DNA of 64,000 nt from Sulfurimonas sp. (GTDB lineage Bacteria; Campylobacterota; Campylobacteria; Campylobacterales; Sulfurimonadaceae). Position 1 is the stretch's first letter; each line of letters begins with the position of its first letter. Positions 11,474 through 42,704 of this stretch are shown here, in pieces. Both the position numbers and the translations under genes were made by a program. The notes beneath the pieces were generated by a model, which saw only the letters and a list, made by a program, of their open reading frames with translations, was not told the DNA's origin and ran no database searches. Location of the stretch: assembly GCF_028714655.1 (NCBI RefSeq), contig NZ_JAQTLY010000006.1:1-64000 (forward strand), written 5' to 3'.

Positions 11474-14188
11474 TTATATCTTAACTATTTTTACACTATT
11501 TTCCAGTAAGTAACAGATATAACCCTCTACTTTATTTTGCGTTATCTCTTTTATAGCTTTTACATAATACTCAACTTGTCTTATGTGATGCTGTGAGTAA
11601 GAGGTAGAACTTTTATAGTCAATCACGCTCCATCCGAAATCATTTTTTACTAAAAGATCGATATATCTGAGGTTATTTTTATATCTAATAGCCTTTTCTC
11701 TATAGAATTCGCTGCTTATTAAAGAGGTAAACTCCTCATTTTTTAAAAGCAGTCCTACTCTATTTTCTATATCTTCTATCTCTTCATCCTCTAAAAGAGT
11801 GCCGTATTTATTTATCATCATATCTTTTGCATATGGTATATTTTTCTCTTCAAACTCACCTAACATCTCTAACATATAGTGCATTGCAAGCCCGAAATTT
11901 ATGGATTTTAAATCCTCTTCTTGAACTTTTTCAACCTCTAAAATATCGCTTTGCGTTCCGTAGTAAAGTTCTTTGTACTCTAAAGTTTGAAACTGCACGC
12001 AAGAGGTTAACTTATCGGACTCTTTTTTGCACTTCAAACTTCCGCTGCTCTTAGGACTTAAATCCAAAATATCAAACGAAGAATCTTTTGATTTTAAAAC
12101 TACGACAAGATTTTCTCTTGCTCTTGTAAATGCGACATACAAAGCATTTAAACTGTCTTCATAAACTAAAGATTTCTCTTTTGTCAGAGCATTTGCATAC
12201 TCCCTATCTACCGCATCCCGTCCTTTTATGCGAAGATAGATATTTTTTAGAGTGATGCCGTCATACTCGTAAATAACAGCATCGCGAGCCGGAGGAGCTT
12301 TTTTAAGTCTGTCCATAACTATGATATGTTCATACTCCAAACCTTTGGATTTGTGAATCGTAAGCACCCTCACACCGATTAACTCGCTTGCCGCCGCGCC
12401 GGCTTCTAGCCTCTCATACTCAAAGAGAAGCGCTTCAATGTCGCTGTACCTTGACACCTCGTTTAAAAACCTTATTTGATTAAAATCATCGCTAAATAGT
12501 CCAAATTCATCTATAACATTTTTAACGACATCTAAAATTTTTGCTTTGTTAAAATCAACCTTTTTTATGGGGCGTACTTCCTGCGAAATGAGAGCAAAAA
12601 AGTTGTGTGCGTAGATATCTTGCACAAAATAGAGATACTTCAGATACTCCAAAATTGCTTTTACGCTTTTTTGATTTATAAGTTTTGTGGTTGTCTCGGT
12701 TACTACATCTATATTTTTAGCGTGAAGCGCCTCTTTAACCTCTTCGCCGTCTTTGTTTGTTGCGCAAAGAACTGCAATCTCGTTTATATCGGCTCCCTGT
12801 TCTAAAAACCTTTGAACCTGAGTTATAACTTCCTGAAGCACCTCATCGTTTTGCACTACCTCTACAAAACCTCCGCTTGCTCCTTCTGCGGCTAACTGCG
12901 GAGTATAGTTTTTTATCTTTTGTTCAAATACACCGTTTACAAACTCTACAATCTCCTTTTGCGAACGATAGTTGGTAAGAAGTTTTTCCACCCGTGTGCC
13001 GTTTTGCTCCCTCACCGTATCAAAAAGCGCGCTCACTCCGCCGCGAAATCTGTAAATTGACTGCTTCACATCTCCGACAAAGAAAAAACTTCCGTTGTCA
13101 AAGATGCCTTTGCCCGCCGTAATCTCGCTTATAAGCGGTTTTAAAATCTCATACTGCAATATGCTGGTGTCTTGAAACTCATCAAGGAGCATATGTTGTA
13201 TCTGTGAATCAAGTCTAAAATATAAAAATTCGCTGTCGTCGATAAGATTTAAAATCTCATAAACAAGGTATGTAACATCATTAAAACTAAGTTCGCTATC
13301 ATCCATATAGAGTGCTTTTTTGCTCTTTGCATAGATATCTGCAAGCTCTTTCATAGCAAAGAAAAAGTTTTGCTCTTTGGCTCTGTTTTGCCCTTTTACG
13401 GCATCTTTTATTTTAATCAGCAAATCATCCATAGCAGGGGTAAAGCACTTCGAAAATGTAGAGTAGTTTAGGCTGTCTCTCTCTAGCCAAGCTTTAGCGC
13501 AAAGCTCATCAAAACTCTCTGAGTGAACAGATTTTATAGCCGTACTTGAAGCCGCCTTGCAAGAAGTCACTATTTTTTTTAACTCCGACATATAAGATAG
13601 AGCAAGAGTCTCAAACTGCACAACATCTTGTTTTTTAAACTCTATATCTTTTAGCTCCCCAAACTTGATGTAAAACTCGTCTAAAAGCTCAAATATATCT
13701 GTAAGTCTTTTGTTTGAAGCAAGCGAAAGCGTGATGAGAATATCTTTTTTTCCGGCAACACTAACCTCTTTCAAAAACCGCGAAAGAAGTTTTAACTCAT
13801 GCTGAGAGCTAAAGGTAGAAAAATCGGGCATCAAAGAGGCATAAAGCGAAAATTTGCGTAAAATCTGAGTAAAAAAACTGTCTATCGTCATTATCTTCGT
13901 ATGCGAATTTAAAAACTCGCCTAAAACTCTTTGGCGATTTGCAAGCAAAAATTCACGGGAAAGTTCAGTAACCTTGACTATCTCATCAAGCTCACCTCTA
14001 CTCTCCAACTCCTCAAGAGTAGAAACAATCCTCTCCTGCATCTCGTTTGCGGCTTTGTTGGTAAATGTAAGAGCAAGTATCTTTGATGGCTGCGCACCTA
14101 AAAAAAGCAGACTAAGATAACGCACGACAAGCATAAAAGTCTTCCCACTTCCCGCACTCGCCTCGTAGGCTAGGTTATTTATGAACAT
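11474..14188 (-). CDS. addA: AddA-type helicase-nuclease (RecB-like)
   Basis: This 904-residue UvrD/REP superfamily 1 helicase has Walker A ASAGSGKT at the N-terminus, motif II LLDEFQDTS, motif III VGDVKQSIYRFRGG, and motif V/VI VLTIHKSKGLE and VAFTRAREN. The C-terminal RecB-type nuclease is marked by WSVIDYKSS and the QVEYY motif. With AddB it processes double-strand breaks for RecA loading. addB lies upstream but is separated by about 3 kb of accessory genes, whereas the two genes are usually neighbours. Confidence 0.9.
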   Translation of the reverse strand: MFINNLAYEASAGSGKTFMLVVRYLSLLFLGAQPSKILALTFTNKAANEMQERIVSTLEELESRGELDEIVKVTELSREFLLANRQRVLGEFLNSHTKIMTIDSFFTQILRKFSLYASLMPDFSTFSSQHELKLLSRFLKEVSVAGKKDILITLSLASNKRLTDIFELLDEFYIKFGELKDIEFKKQDVVQFETLALSYMSELKKIVTSCKAASSTAIKSVHSESFDELCAKAWLERDSLNYSTFSKCFTPAMDDLLIKIKDAVKGQNRAKEQNFFFAMKELADIYAKSKKALYMDDSELSFNDVTYLVYEILNLIDDSEFLYFRLDSQIQHMLLDEFQDTSILQYEILKPLISEITAGKGIFDNGSFFFVGDVKQSIYRFRGGVSALFDTVREQNGTRVEKLLTNYRSQKEIVEFVNGVFEQKIKNYTPQLAAEGASGGFVEVVQNDEVLQEVITQVQRFLEQGADINEIAVLCATNKDGEEVKEALHAKNIDVVTETTTKLINQKSVKAILEYLKYLYFVQDIYAHNFFALISQEVRPIKKVDFNKAKILDVVKNVIDEFGLFSDDFNQIRFLNEVSRYSDIEALLFEYERLEAGAAASELIGVRVLTIHKSKGLEYEHIIVMDRLKKAPPARDAVIYEYDGITLKNIYLRIKGRDAVDREYANALTKEKSLVYEDSLNALYVAFTRARENLVVVLKSKDSSFDILDLSPKSSGSLKCKKESDKLTSCVQFQTLEYKELYYGTQSDILEVEKVQEEDLKSINFGLAMHYMLEMLGEFEEKNIPYAKDMMINKYGTLLEDEEIEDIENRVGLLLKNEEFTSLISSEFYREKAIRYKNNLRYIDLLVKNDFGWSVIDYKSSTSYSQHHIRQVEYYVKAIKEITQNKVEGYICYLLENSVKIVKI

Positions 14189-38502: not shown

Positions 38503-38591
38503 GGATCTTTGGCTGAGTTGGTCGATAGCACCGGTCTTGAAAACCGGCGAGGGTAATACCTCCCAGAGTTCGAATCTCTGAGGGTCCACCA
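38503..38591 (+). tRNA. tRNA-Ser (TGA)
   Basis: An 89-nt class II tRNA with acceptor GGATCTT/AGGGTCC, anticodon loop CTTGAAA (TGA), long variable arm (GAGGGTAATACCTC) and encoded CCA. It is the last tRNA of the cluster, and the AT-rich accessory island starts directly after it, so it is a likely integration target. Confidence 0.96.
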
Positions 38592-38914
38592 TATTTTTAC
38601 ACAACCCCCTTAAATACAATACTTTCAGACATTTTTCATAACTAATTCTTATATCAATAACTTTATTCTATCTATTCACTTTTTCAATATTTTTTTACTT
38701 TTAGAACAATTTTAGTCGCAGATTTGTCTCTATAAAAATGTAAGCATTCGATGAAAACGGTGTTTGAGTTTGTGGGCAACTCGCCGGTCTGCTTTGTCGG
38801 GTTATGATGATTTTGGTCGCAGATTTGTCAAAAATTTTTCGTATTAAGTTTATGCAATAAACGTATAATTTGAGGTCGAACATCTGTACGGCCTCAATAA
38901 CTATGTAGTATACT
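38592..38914. other. Non-coding left edge of the island
   Basis: 323 bp between tRNA-Ser and the DUF6527 gene without a convincing gene. It contains two copies of a 19-nt word, TTTTAGTCGCAGATTTGTC (38710-38728) and TTTTGGTCGCAGATTTGTC (38811-38829), 101 bp apart. The G+C of the middle part (gggcaactcgccggtctgct) is higher than its flanks, suggesting debris of other DNA. Confidence 0.55.
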
Positions 38915-39328
38915 TTAAATAAAAAACCTATGAAAGAACTTAGAAAAAAAACTTTGATTAATAGTATTACTTTGCTGTTCACTTTCTATTTCAGATTTTT
39001 TATTTTTGTAGTGTCTATTTCTATCAACAGCATCACGCTTCTGTACAGCGACAATCTGTTCCTCAGTCCACGACTCTGCCCAAACAACTTGTCCACTCCT
39101 AATCCAGTAATGAGATTTACATGGTAAATTCCAACTTCCAATAGAAGGATTTAAAGAAACATTGTCTCCATTGTATGAGAGTGTCCATCCTGTAGGGGTA
39201 ATGGAAGTCATAACTTTATTACCACAGCCGCAAGCACACAGGTGTGTTGCCGTTTTATATTCAATCGAAATATACAAAACGTCCTCCTGCAGCTTTTTAG
39301 GCATAAGGGTTACAAACTCATGCCGCAT
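38915..39328 (-). CDS. DUF6527 protein of the ubiquitin-like operon
   Basis: The 137 residues match DUF6527: a CACGCG cluster (Cys31, 33, 35), NPSIGSWNLPCKSHYWI (Cys70, His73) and VVWAESWT. The Cys/His pattern suggests metal binding. DUF6527 genes are known to accompany bacterial multi-ubiquitin and E1-like genes; the activity is not known to me. The C-terminal 40 residues are polar and variable. The ATG lies 11 nt inside the E1 gene, so translation is coupled. Confidence 0.8.
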   Translation of the reverse strand: MRHEFVTLMPKKLQEDVLYISIEYKTATHLCACGCGNKVMTSITPTGWTLSYNGDNVSLNPSIGSWNLPCKSHYWIRSGQVVWAESWTEEQIVAVQKRDAVDRNRHYKNKKSEIESEQQSNTINQSFFSKFFHRFFI

Positions 39329-40493
39329 TTTCTGTCCGAATCAAGTTCATTGTTGAAAGTGTAAAGAGTGTTTGATCAACACCTATAAGTGACTGATAAA
39401 ATCCTGCAGATTGTTTCCATGCCATAACAGCAAGTGACGCATTTATAGAATTTAATTCAGCTATTTGAATATTACTTCCATAAATATCATCTTCAGATGT
39501 ACTGTAATTAAGAGTACTTTGTAAATGCTTACTACTATGTGTAATAAACGATGTTGTACGTAGCATACCTGAGAGTTTATTATCTTTAATACTAACTCCC
39601 ATTCCAACATCAACATATTCAATCTCTTTTTCATCAAGATGTGCAAAGATTATTTTTTTGATACTGCCATCATCAACTGCAACAAAAATAAAATTTAAAC
39701 CATCAAGTAAAGAAAGATAATCTTCATTTATAAAGACAGGGTGAGCAGTTATGCCTCGATGCATTTTGGAATATATCCCTTTAAGGTAAGAAACCTTTTT
39801 CATACTTGAATTTAATTCTTCTATACTTGGTGCACCTGGTACTCGGAATGCATTGTGAGAAAAGAACTCATCTCCATCAAAGAGATGAATTTGTTCTACT
39901 GGAGACTTGGCAACAAAGTCCAAAATATAAGACCCAGTACCACCAAGACCGATAATGCCAATTTTATATGGTTTTAGTTTATCTGCAATATGAGAGATTG
40001 ATGAACGACTCGAATTAGCATCATGATAATTAAAAACAGAGTCACTATCCAATTCTTGGAATACTTTATGCTTTTTTGGAGTTACAGTCGAATCTATTGA
40101 TTGAGCGGGAGACGATATCATTGCTACATATGCTGTCATCTTATGATGATAATCTCTATAGTTGCCTTGCGGCTTGCTAGATAGCATCATTTTTGATACA
40201 ATATCGTTTCCGTGATTTGTAATACTTTTAGTATTTATGATTTCACTTATTTCTCTGCCATCTTTATGGCATGGTTCGTCACCAATGAAATATGCTTTGT
40301 GATCTTGATCATATTTTGCTCGCCCGCCAAGAAGAGTTAATGTTGATATCAAGGTTCCGATAGCGATTTCACATTTGTTATTTACATATGGAATATCTTC
40401 CACAACTAATATACCGCCCTTAATATATACAGTATAACCTTCATCCCTAAGTCGTTTCAGATCTGGACTATGATCGATTTGTAGGTTCGACAT
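39318..40493 (-). CDS. E1-like ThiF adenylyltransferase with N-terminal DUF6791-like domain
   Basis: This 391-residue protein has an N-terminal domain (about 1-150; GDEPCHKDG, SSKPQGNYRDYHHKMTAYVA) resembling DUF6791, thought to be E2-like. A ThiF/E1 adenylation domain follows, with GLGGTGSY (182-189), LFDGD (204-208), Asn214, Arg217 and the Lys232/233 region, so ATP-dependent activation of a Ubl C-terminus looks feasible. The only cysteines are Cys41 and Cys75, both N-terminal; the E1 domain has none at the usual catalytic-cysteine region (VDVGMG, 295-300). Transfer might therefore use another residue, or the N-terminal domain. It overlaps the Ubl gene by 26 bp and DUF6527 by 11 bp. Confidence 0.82.
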   Translation of the reverse strand: MSNLQIDHSPDLKRLRDEGYTVYIKGGILVVEDIPYVNNKCEIAIGTLISTLTLLGGRAKYDQDHKAYFIGDEPCHKDGREISEIINTKSITNHGNDIVSKMMLSSKPQGNYRDYHHKMTAYVAMISSPAQSIDSTVTPKKHKVFQELDSDSVFNYHDANSSRSSISHIADKLKPYKIGIIGLGGTGSYILDFVAKSPVEQIHLFDGDEFFSHNAFRVPGAPSIEELNSSMKKVSYLKGIYSKMHRGITAHPVFINEDYLSLLDGLNFIFVAVDDGSIKKIIFAHLDEKEIEYVDVGMGVSIKDNKLSGMLRTTSFITHSSKHLQSTLNYSTSEDDIYGSNIQIAELNSINASLAVMAWKQSAGFYQSLIGVDQTLFTLSTMNLIRTENAA

Positions 40494-40740
40494 GAAAAAA
40501 CATCCCTTCTTTTACTTTTACTAGTTCACCTATTACTAAGTTACCACTTTTACCGTGTTCACCACGCTCATAGGCTACAGTTACCATAGTGTTTTCACCT
40601 ACTGGTACTCCTGCCAGTTCAACTACTTTTTCATATGAGATTTCCTTCTCTGTGTATATGAAACTATTAGCACCTATGATAATAGTAAACTCTTTTTCTT
40701 TACCAGGGATATTATCCCTATTGTTTTCAAGGTTACTCAA
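40468..40740 (-). CDS. Single-domain ubiquitin-like protein (multiubiquitin family)
   Basis: The 90 residues have a beta-grasp pattern of the bacterial Multi_ubiq family: EFTIIIGANSFIYTEKEISY, VVELAGVP and the family ending GMFFHVEPTNRS. Only one Ubl domain is present, while relatives often have two or more. The C-terminus ends in Arg-Ser, not Gly-Gly. It is the first gene of the operon Ubl, E1-like, DUF6527. A GGAG box (AAAAGGAGTTACA) precedes the ATG. Confidence 0.8.
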   Translation of the reverse strand: MSNLENNRDNIPGKEKEFTIIIGANSFIYTEKEISYEKVVELAGVPVGENTMVTVAYERGEHGKSGNLVIGELVKVKEGMFFHVEPTNRS

Positions 40741-40823
40741 TTGTAACTCCTTTTCTTAATTTTGGCCAATCATTACTTTGGTTATCACTATCATACCTGA
40801 TATTAAGTAGATTGTCAATTGCA

Positions 40824-40935
40824 TTTCTAAAATATCATTATTTATTAGAAATTTTATTTATATAAATTCTAAAATATATAATACTATTGAAATAATATTT
40901 AATAATATTTCTAAAATAGACATATAATATAGAAA
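40824..40935. promoter_or_regulatory. Three-copy operator-like array between the Ubl operon and its regulator
   Basis: The 11-mer (T/A)TTCTAAAATA occurs at 40824-40834, 40866-40876 and 40908-40918, each exactly 42 bp from the last. In copies 1 and 3 an inverted half, TTAGAAA (40845-40851) and ATAGAAA (40929-40935), follows with its start 21 bp downstream of the first half; in copy 2 the half is degenerate (ATTGAAA). 21 and 42 bp are two and four helical turns, so all sites lie on one face. The third site covers a TATAAT (40923-40928) that could be the -10 of the WYL gene. WYL-type regulators bind such inverted repeats. Confidence 0.6.
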
Positions 40936-41002
40936 TAAATTAGAATATAAGAATAGTTAAGGTAAAATTCACCACAAATTTTGAAAGAGTAAGGAACGAG
41001 TT

Positions 41003-41890
41003 GTGGAAATTAGAATAAAAAGCATATACAAAGAACTTTACAAAACCCACCGTTCCAAAGAATACTTCGCTGAATTATTTGATGTAAGCACAAAAACAAT
41101 TGAAAACACAGTCAGTAATTATAAAGATGATATTATTTATGATAAGAAATTAAGTAGTTATCGCTTTAAAAATTTATTACCAAAATATATTTCATACGAA
41201 TCATTTTTCAAACTATTTCAGAATAGTATTGGAAATAGCATAATTAAAAATGATTTTCTTAGTATTGGTAAATCAATGAGTAAAGAAGAAAGCAGTTTAT
41301 CAATGATTGACACATCTTCTTTATCAGATTTAGCTCAAAAAATTGTTTCATGTGATATTGCAATAAATAATAATAATATCCTTAAAATTGAATATTCTGG
41401 TAATTCAAAACCAAAAGAGGCAAAGTATGTTAGGCCACATACGATAATATCAACAGGCTTTACATATTATTTATATGCTTCCTACGATGAAAAAAATGAA
41501 AAAAATATTGGTAAGTATAGGTCATTAGGGTTTAATGGAATGGGAGAAATCAGCCTTATTGATTACGTAAATAATGCTAATTTTAGAATAGACAAAACAG
41601 GTAATGCTTATGGCCTTTATGAAAAGGAAAAGTATGTGACATTAAAATTAGAGCCATATAGTGCTAATTTTTTCAAAAAAGAAGGACTTTTACAAAAAGA
41701 AAATTTTGATTTTATTATAGAAGATGATAATAATGCTATTCTAATAAACATGTATTACAATGATGATCAAGAAATTATTAATCTTATACAACAATGGATG
41801 CCTCAAATTAGTATTCAAAATAATATTAATTTAAAAGAAAAAATTTATTTAAAAATTAAATCAAATTATGAAGCACTAATTAAATCATAA
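41003..41890 (+). CDS. WYL-domain transcriptional regulator (CapW/BrxR-like)
   Basis: This 295-residue protein has an N-terminal helix-turn-helix (about 1-55, KEYFAELFDVSTKTIEN), a WYL-like domain (about 120-195, NILKIEYSG, FTYYLYASYDEKNEKN with a YLYA core) and a C-terminal WCX-like extension. This is the layout of regulators that repress defence operons until triggered. It starts with GTG at 41003 behind AAGGA. It is divergent from the Ubl operon with the 42-bp operator array between. Codon use is very AT-rich, which fits acquisition by transfer. Confidence 0.75.
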   Translation: MEIRIKSIYKELYKTHRSKEYFAELFDVSTKTIENTVSNYKDDIIYDKKLSSYRFKNLLPKYISYESFFKLFQNSIGNSIIKNDFLSIGKSMSKEESSLSMIDTSSLSDLAQKIVSCDIAINNNNILKIEYSGNSKPKEAKYVRPHTIISTGFTYYLYASYDEKNEKNIGKYRSLGFNGMGEISLIDYVNNANFRIDKTGNAYGLYEKEKYVTLKLEPYSANFFKKEGLLQKENFDFIIEDDNNAILINMYYNDDQEIINLIQQWMPQISIQNNINLKEKIYLKIKSNYEALIKS

Positions 41891-42134: not shown

Positions 42135-42704
42135 TTACGCAGTTAAACCTTCAAGCTGATTTCTTACATCAACTTGATCTAGATTTCCAAAGCGTAGGTA
42201 GAATCGCTGGGTTGTACTGATATCTTTGTGACCCATACATTCTTTGACTATATGCATCGATATACCATTTTGAACGGACAAGCTTGCAAAGGTGTGTCTA
42301 GTTTGGTAAAGTCCTTTATAAGCTATACCCAATCTTTGAAGCATTGGTTTAAATTTATGGTCAACTATCGTTCTTGAGTATGTATAAGGCATCCTGCTCT
42401 TTAAATTAGGAAATACCCACTCGCAATATGACGACTCTTTGTATTGTAAAAGCTTTTCATGCAATTTTTTTACCATTGGCACACTTCGCGTAGTACCTGT
42501 TTTAGTAGTGCTTATTACGCTTCTTGTAATTGAACGCTCTATTGTTATCGTACCATTTTCAAAGTTGATATCCGACCACTTAACAAGTTCTCAAGCTTCT
42601 ATGCAAGCGCACAAAAGCAGAGCTTGAAACACTCTTTGAGATTTAGGTCTTAACGGGTGGGACGGGTACTTTTTTATGAAAACTGTTTTTTTTACTCTCG
42701 ACAT
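42135..42704 (-). pseudogene. Broken tyrosine recombinase (integrase), C-terminal domain
   Basis: From an ATG at 42704 the frame reads MSRVKKTVFIKKYP and FQALLLCACIEA, then an in-frame TGA at 42591-42593, and continues in the same frame to 42135. The rest includes LVKWSDINFENGTITIERS, TRHTFASLSV, GHKDISTTQRFY: the second Arg, the His and the nucleophilic Tyr are present. The first catalytic Arg (normally in GLR.GEL) falls in the altered ACIEA-stop-EL stretch and is lost. The N-terminal core-binding domain is absent as well, so the enzyme is dead. Confidence 0.85.

Follow-up and report, generated by a model that had tools for sequence, protein, structure and literature searches.

A widespread, JAB-less relative of the Bub operon with a serine-ended ubiquitin-like protein and a predicted E2-like/E1 fusion in Sulfurimonas sp.

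Introduction

Bub, the closest described relative of the operon presented here, uses Ser-linked (oxyester) intermediates, a piece of background that was not used as evidence in this study. The Bub reference consists of BubA, BubB, BubC and BubD together with DUF6527 and corresponds to operon type 6e of Iyer 2006, with structures deposited as PDB 9ea4-9eae. One report lists 544 Bub operons, many of them with CapW (WYL), CapH and CapP or CapK and CapS as regulators, and states that protection against phage was not shown for Bub (PMC13373217). The operon type discussed here was already noted in 2006 in row 6e, as an E1 with an uncharacterised N-terminal domain replacing the JAB (PMC1779556).

In the present work, we analysed a DNA stretch of 64,000 nucleotides from Sulfurimonas sp., in the following called the window, which lies on contig C6 of a 26-contig, 2.19-Mb genome. 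Within it, three overlapping genes encode a ubiquitin-like protein (Ubl), a two-domain protein with an E1-like half, and a DUF6527 protein.

Results

Gene layout and distribution of the operon

All three genes are located on the minus strand, and the coordinates, strand and overlaps of 26 bp (Ubl/fusion) and 11 bp (fusion/DUF6527) given in the original prediction were borne out. The features of the operon are as follows:

38915..39328, minus strand: DUF6527 gene, 137 aa, small beta domain and long C-terminal helix (Pfam PF20137, 1.5e-24; AlphaFold)
39318..40493, minus strand: E2-like/E1 fusion, 391 aa (NCBIfam NF004805, 9e-143, "hypothetical protein"; alignments)
39321..39995, minus strand: ThiF/E1 adenylation domain, residues 167-391 (Pfam ThiF, 2e-8; match to the BubCD profile)
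39999..40493, minus strand: DUF6791 domain, residues 1-165, predicted E2/UBC-like fold (Pfam DUF6791, 2.3e-52; predicted structure)
40179..40181, minus strand: codon of S105, motif [FLM]-S-x-K (Ser in 59/59)
40269..40271, minus strand: codon of C75, motif G-x-x-P-C, just after strand beta4 (alignment of 59)
40468..40740, minus strand: Ubl gene, 90 aa, one beta-grasp domain, Multi_ubiq, TTG start (Pfam PF14452, 2e-8); the mature C-terminus reads ..T-N-R-S-COOH (..EPTNRS, read from the sequence)
40468..40493, minus strand: 26-nt overlap of the Ubl and E1 reading frames (identical length in 53/55 homologous loci)
40471..40473, minus strand: codon of the Ubl C-terminal Ser (homologous operons; third-position selection test)

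More than 50 copies of this operon were found over many phyla, on plasmids and islands. A genome scan yielded 40 further loci, nearly all with the order Ubl, fusion and DUF6527, in Alpha- and Betaproteobacteria, Verrucomicrobia, Planctomycetes, Acidobacteria, Actinobacteria, Saccharibacteria and others, and a plasmid scan yielded 115 records, 45 of which belong to Acinetobacter; Klebsiella and Pseudomonas plasmids carry the operon as well. Among the genomes and plasmids of many phyla sharing the three-gene order, E1 identity ranges from 32 to 49%. Since dozens of genomes and plasmids share this order, with the same 26-nt overlap in nearly every locus compared, the arrangement is more than a chance observation. 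Among the 199 genomes searched (host genome and relatives), just one other carries a DUF6791 gene, and the operon is therefore patchy in its distribution. Phage-borne copies were absent from the phage collection, and none was confirmed in viral contigs. Despite this widespread occurrence, DUF6791 is annotated as of "unknown function" (Pfam) or as "hypothetical protein" (NCBIfam), and no mention of DUF6791 or DUF6527 was found in the literature searched.

Comparison with Bub loci using profiles made in this study revealed a clean exclusion pattern: JAB occurred in 13/13 Bub loci vs. 0/51 DUF6791 loci and Prok-E2_E in 12/13 vs. 0/51, whereas DUF6791 was present in 0/13 Bub loci vs. 51/51. DUF6527, in turn, is shared by both (10/13 Bub loci and, as third gene, 49/51 DUF6791 loci). 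DUF6791 thus takes the position of both the JAB and the separate E2. In the window, the Bub-like components are the Multi_ubiq Ubl (2e-8), an E1 of the BubD kind and DUF6527 as third gene, while an E2 of the Prok-E2_E (BubB) family and a JAB peptidase (BubC) are lacking, the absence of an adjoining JAB gene having been noted originally. A Citrobacter plasmid relative (L046) features the order winged-helix regulator, Ubl-E2 fusion, JAB-E1 fusion and DUF6527.

The Ubl ends in a conserved serine

Instead of the canonical Gly(-Gly), the Ubl carries the Arg-Ser end that had been read from the sequence before. A terminal Ser was found in 54/55 Ubls and in 6/6 added later (60/61), with the remaining one ending in Ala. 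E1 codon 7 takes its third base from the first position of this Ser codon, so that replacing T with C there would leave the E1 residue unchanged but give a Ubl ending in Pro. The T is kept in 31/32 clusters (log10 P about -13 from the gene-wide T/(T+C)), although many of the tested genes favour C at third positions, which indicates selection on the terminal Ser, with the qualification that the comparison separates Ser from Pro only and that an RNA-level constraint could mimic the result. In 52 operons with the 26-nt overlap (window 40468-40473 and homologues), the terminal codon is TCG, TCA or TCT only, never TCC or AGY, and E1 residue 8 is consequently always Arg, His or Leu.

The separate Ubls of Bub run beyond Gly (..TTTEG, ..NPGQN) or into a fused E2; Bub would thus need a protease, and the operons with a Ser-ended Ubl would not. 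Among solved structures, the Ubl family profile matches 9cd2 at 1.5e-22, the last residues of which are ..TDKS. Overall, the missing JAB and the Ser end, which could have been taken as peculiar to this copy, proved to be traits of the family, and the two occur together.

The E1 half retains its ATP site and has no invariant cysteine

Residues for adenylation (GxGGxG 182-187, D206, D208, N214, R217, K233, D274, R312) are conserved in 58-59/59 sequences, with GxGGxG, D206/D208, R217 and K233 present in all 59, as in an E1 ATP-binding site. Of the nucleotide-binding residues originally named, GxGGxG, D206/D208, N214 and R217 were kept, the conserved Lys being K233 rather than K232, and a loss of the site was not seen. 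The closest solved relative of this half is BubCD (3.9e-8 in the PDB; hhalign E 8.7e-19 at the profile level); it also matches MccB by sequence, and the PADLOC matches to the fusion cover the ThiF part only.

The only cysteines of the 391-aa fusion are C41 and C75, both N-terminal, so that the ThiF half is devoid of Cys, as originally described. For this one protein, this alone carries little weight as evidence: one to three Cys occur in the ThiF half of most relatives, 2/42 have none, and no such Cys is invariant. Alignment column 272 is C36/S17/A4, and no invariant Cys occurs in or after the adenylation domain, where an E1 of the Uba1/Cap2 type would have its conserved catalytic Cys. A conserved Ser/Thr in the ThiF half was considered as alternative E1 nucleophile and rejected, as none is invariant.

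DUF6791 is predicted to adopt an E2 fold

An AlphaFold model of DUF6791, built on 32 sequences, reached a pLDDT of 86 and a pTM of 0.80. Its top VIA-align match is Citrobacter BubB (9eae_C; Z 8.9, rmsd 3.6), aligned over 120 of about 130 folded residues, with the runner-up well below at Z 6.1, and all 50 matches listed are E2, UEV, UFC1 or Atg3-type folds. Foldseek gave no significant match with the same model, the best one (E 0.36) being an E2. Similarity between DUF6791 and BubB was not detectable by sequence (hhalign probability 0.3%), and a sequence-level link of DUF6791 to Prok-E2_E was rejected on the same grounds. We take the E2/UBC fold to be settled to the extent that a confident prediction allows. 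The structure prediction proposed along with the original note has assigned an E2 fold to this half, and since the N-terminal domain has such a fold, the suggested transfer through it is plausible, although not through C41, which is R, G or K in relatives and was rejected as catalytic residue.

An E2 fold may also be catalytically dead, as in UEV/RWD domains, a state formerly suggested for the E2-like family of 6e (PMC1779556). Accordingly, DUF6791 could serve as an inactive UEV-like scaffold, with the target or a small molecule attacking the adenylated Ubl directly, MccB-style, and without a covalent enzyme intermediate. In favour of this, the top structural matches include UEV domains of the TSG101 type, no Cys is conserved in the ThiF half, and MccB, a sequence match of the E1 half, adenylates a peptide with a non-Gly end. 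In this peptide substrate, the terminal residue is Asn. We nevertheless consider a scaffold quite improbable, given that an invariant patch of S105, K107 (59/59) and Y122 together with the near-invariant C75, H65 and K118 exceeds what it would need.

Candidate catalytic residues

The family alignment that had been proposed originally did reveal conserved residues in the N-terminal domain, S105 being the only Ser/Thr/Cys invariant across all 59 fusion sequences. C75, in contrast, is Cys in 52/59 and His or Tyr in the other seven, and thus differs from the invariant Cys of a canonical catalytic E2; its apparent invariance in a first set (41/41) was overturned by sampling more plasmids and genomes. 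The seven Cys75-less operons form a monophyletic group (FastTree support 1.0) including Rhizobium, Ensifer, Neorhizobium and Sagittula plasmids, and they have DUF6527 where annotated. The Rhizobium leguminosarum operon L092 is one that lacks C75. The sole Cys fully shared by this clade is at column 272, where 21 other members have Ser or Ala.

In the model, C75 comes shortly after strand beta4, at the site occupied by HPN in other E2s. At this position, Atg3/Atg10 have HPC. The spacing of 10 between H65 and C75, as in human E2s, suggested a canonical HPN..C pair, which was rejected because H65 precedes strand beta4. A true E2-type catalytic role of C75, passing the Ubl from the adenylate to a thioester as in Atg3/Atg10-like E2s, would be in line with its occurrence in most relatives within G-x-x-P-C, five residues past beta4, and with Atg3 among the matches of the E2 fold; the rhizobial Cys-less clade would then be degenerate or re-engineered. 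Those seven operons, however, keep S105, K107 and the ATP site, and in 6/7 the terminal Ser of the Ubl (Ala in the seventh), a conservation not expected of a dead system, and we hold this role of C75 to be rather unlikely.

The VIA alignment pairs residue 131 of the DUF6791 model with residue 361 of BubAB, and counting back places S105 within two residues of the Ser in W-S-R-H of BubB (S333 in L046), a correspondence that rests on first and last aligned residues rather than on an inspected superposition. Taken together, we infer that, as a candidate for the whole family, S105 is preferable to C75, which would be accessory or clade-specific; S105 could also be structural. Because C75 is absent from an otherwise intact clade and S105 is invariant, the non-cysteine route put forward in the original prediction is plausible.

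DUF6527 as a probable metal-binding partner

In 22 aligned DUF6527 sequences, H29, C31, C33, C35, C70 and H73 as well as W48, P61, G64 and W66 are invariant, and the CxCGC..CxSH core is also present in the Bub DUF6527. The set Cys31/33/35/70 and His73, initially proposed as a metal site, thus behaves as expected of one, and DUF6527 is probably a metal-binding protein; a function as target adaptor would be a guess. The AlphaFold model (pLDDT 91) displays a small beta domain and a 48-residue helix, and PDB searches gave no convincing match for the fold, the best ones covering its long helix only. In most members, the C-terminal helix is basic/aromatic with a conserved Trp (e.g., ..FWARLWKWLSR), the copy in the window ending in ..FFSKFFHRFFI (38915-39000), and such a helix might bind a membrane or a partner.

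Genomic surroundings and regulators

The following features surround the operon:

38503..38591, plus strand: tRNA-Ser, left edge of the variable region (ARAGORN; homology to genus relatives stops there)
40741..41002, no strand assigned: intergenic region with putative divergent promoters (from position only)
41003..41890, plus strand: WYL-type regulator, divergent from the operon (PADLOC WYL, 2.4e-11)
42135-42482: phage-type integrase fragment, 115 aa (Phage_integrase, 3e-10)

Homology to most genus members ends at the 3' end of the tRNA-Ser (38591), while in the closest relative G080 it extends to about 38827 and resumes at 41889. There, the operon and the WYL gene are replaced by a GmrSD_N gene (PADLOC NsnA, 1e-76) and a RiboL-PSP-HEPN gene, and this pair (L082, G080:C46:1-3000, corresponding to window 38828-41889) represents a cassette exchange at one site. 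The second operon copy in the genus is found in G015 (L083, G015:C6, 2925-5790), beside a shortened Mg-chelatase/comM-like gene, a neighbour that suggests insertion into comM. In genome G674, the 60-bp end of the tRNA-Ser recurs about 12 kb away (L084, G674:C1, near 590-632 and 12148-12206), as expected of an integrating element, and the tRNA-Ser is an integration site in the genus; in the window, no further tRNA-Ser end was found that would delimit an element on the right. The integrase fragment is probably what is left of the element by which the cassette arrived.

Regulators near homologous operons include ImmA/IrrE peptidases (11/49 by similarity, one more by Pfam), S24 (1) and WYL (2), some of them of types for which control of Bub and CBASS operons following DNA damage has been reported (PMC13373217). 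In the Adhaeribacter operon L048, a WYL gene is placed divergently in the same way, and the divergent WYL protein is likely the controller of the operon described here. An assignment of this protein as CapW by sequence was rejected, PDB matches to WYL/BrxR proteins being weak (0.06-0.8).

Near 18 homologous operons (L007-L013, L015, L016, L018, L021, L024, L026, L030, L042, L085, L087, L088), a large protein of the UvrD helicase-nuclease type is encoded, combining M78 peptidase, UvrD helicase and PD-(D/E)XK parts (e.g., L010:269-5169); 14 of these loci also have 304-aa and 195-aa genes and possibly constitute a six-gene system. An IetA-like AAA protein was found in six loci, alone in four of them (L022, L026, L034, L037) and in two (L043 and L025, 1745-5243) as a full IetAS pair that immediately precedes the Ubl operon and shares its strand. 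Overall, the context points to defence, as a defence-island signature rather than as proof of it.

The same surroundings bear on two further explanations. Plasmid carriage, patchiness and apparently tight regulation would suit a toxin-antitoxin or addiction module with self-maintenance as its sole role and no phage defence, but the fact that anti-phage genes repeatedly lie beside the operon or take its place, together with the diverse, exchangeable stress regulators, makes us give such a module little chance. An E1 of the ThiF/MoeB type would also be compatible with a sulfur carrier, i.e., a Ubl thiocarboxylated for small-molecule biosynthesis like ThiS/MoaD. Metabolic or sulfurtransferase genes are, however, absent from the operon and the neighbour genes examined, the Ubl ends in Ser rather than Gly-Gly, and the locus is mobile and patchy with defence-type surroundings, all of which renders a sulfur carrier extremely improbable.

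Discussion

Our analysis places the operon as a widespread, JAB-less, E2-E1-fused relative of Bub. Its function is probably a compact and mobile Bub-like Ubl conjugation, in which the Ser-ended Ubl is adenylated by the E1 half and then transferred by the E2-like domain, likely without an obligatory thioester. The ThiF half, having an intact site, would bind ATP and adenylate the Ubl C-terminus, and with nothing following the terminal Ser, the Ubl should require no protease for maturation. The E2-fold DUF6791 half would then take the Ubl from the adenylate and hand it to a target. With no Cys conserved in the E1 half and a natural clade of otherwise intact operons lacking C75, this transfer need not proceed via a thioester; S105 (F-S-x-K) would be the most likely group, either as oxyester-forming nucleophile or as active-site helper, assisted by C75 where present. 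DUF6527 could, speculatively, choose or hold the target. With no JAB encoded to remove the Ubl again, conjugation should run in one direction only, and a stress-type regulator, here the WYL protein, may keep it off until infection or DNA damage.

A stricter version of this conjugation scheme, i.e., a cascade lacking any catalytic cysteine, with a Ser-ended Ubl, a Cys-less E1, an oxyester at Ser105 and no deconjugase, resulting in an irreversible, infection-triggered tag, is a tentative proposal to which we lean less than not. In any case, the C75-less clade and the selected Ser end offer clean tests of Ubl transfer without a cysteine or a glycine tail, and such relatives make a cysteine-free tagging chemistry directly testable. 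The question bears on the origin of ubiquitin chemistry and on how far it can vary. Moreover, once DUF6791 is recognised as an E2 domain, a fusion that lacked an explanation becomes a minimal conjugation system of three genes, the size of which allows reconstitution.

With regard to earlier work, the operon almost certainly has the same architecture as the subset in row 6e of 2006, whose Zn-finger-like partner resembles DUF6527; the N-terminal domain was guessed to be JAB-like there, whereas it is predicted here as an E2 fold (PMC1779556). Judged from the model, an E2 role fits this domain better than a JAB-like one. Bub itself is alike in its Multi_ubiq Ubl, the related E1 (hhalign 8.7e-19), DUF6527 as third gene, the stress-type regulators including WYL, and an E2-fold partner, BubB being closest to the DUF6791 fold (Z 8.9). 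It differs in that Bub has a separate or Ubl-fused Prok-E2_E E2 and a JAB, whereas DUF6791 is fused ahead of the E1 and a JAB is missing here, and in that the Ubls of Bub extend past a Gly with additional residues or a fused E2, while the Ubl of this operon is born mature and ends in Ser. The solved 9cd2 ("ZDHYS365 multi-ubiquitin domain protein") is similar in its C-terminal Ubl domain with a ..VTxTDKS end, and its plasmid relatives adjoin ThiF-family genes of this operon type, but it is longer (222 residues), with more sequence ahead of the matching Ubl domain. CBASS Cap2 and Bil likewise combine an E2-like domain with an E1 in a small defence-type operon, Cap2 even in the same E2-then-E1 fusion order, yet both use catalytic cysteines and a JAB, unlike the operon described here. 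Finally, the microcin C7 adenylyltransferase MccB shares the ThiF fold and adenylates a peptide C-terminus without a need for Gly-Gly, but has neither a Ubl nor an E2-like domain of this kind.
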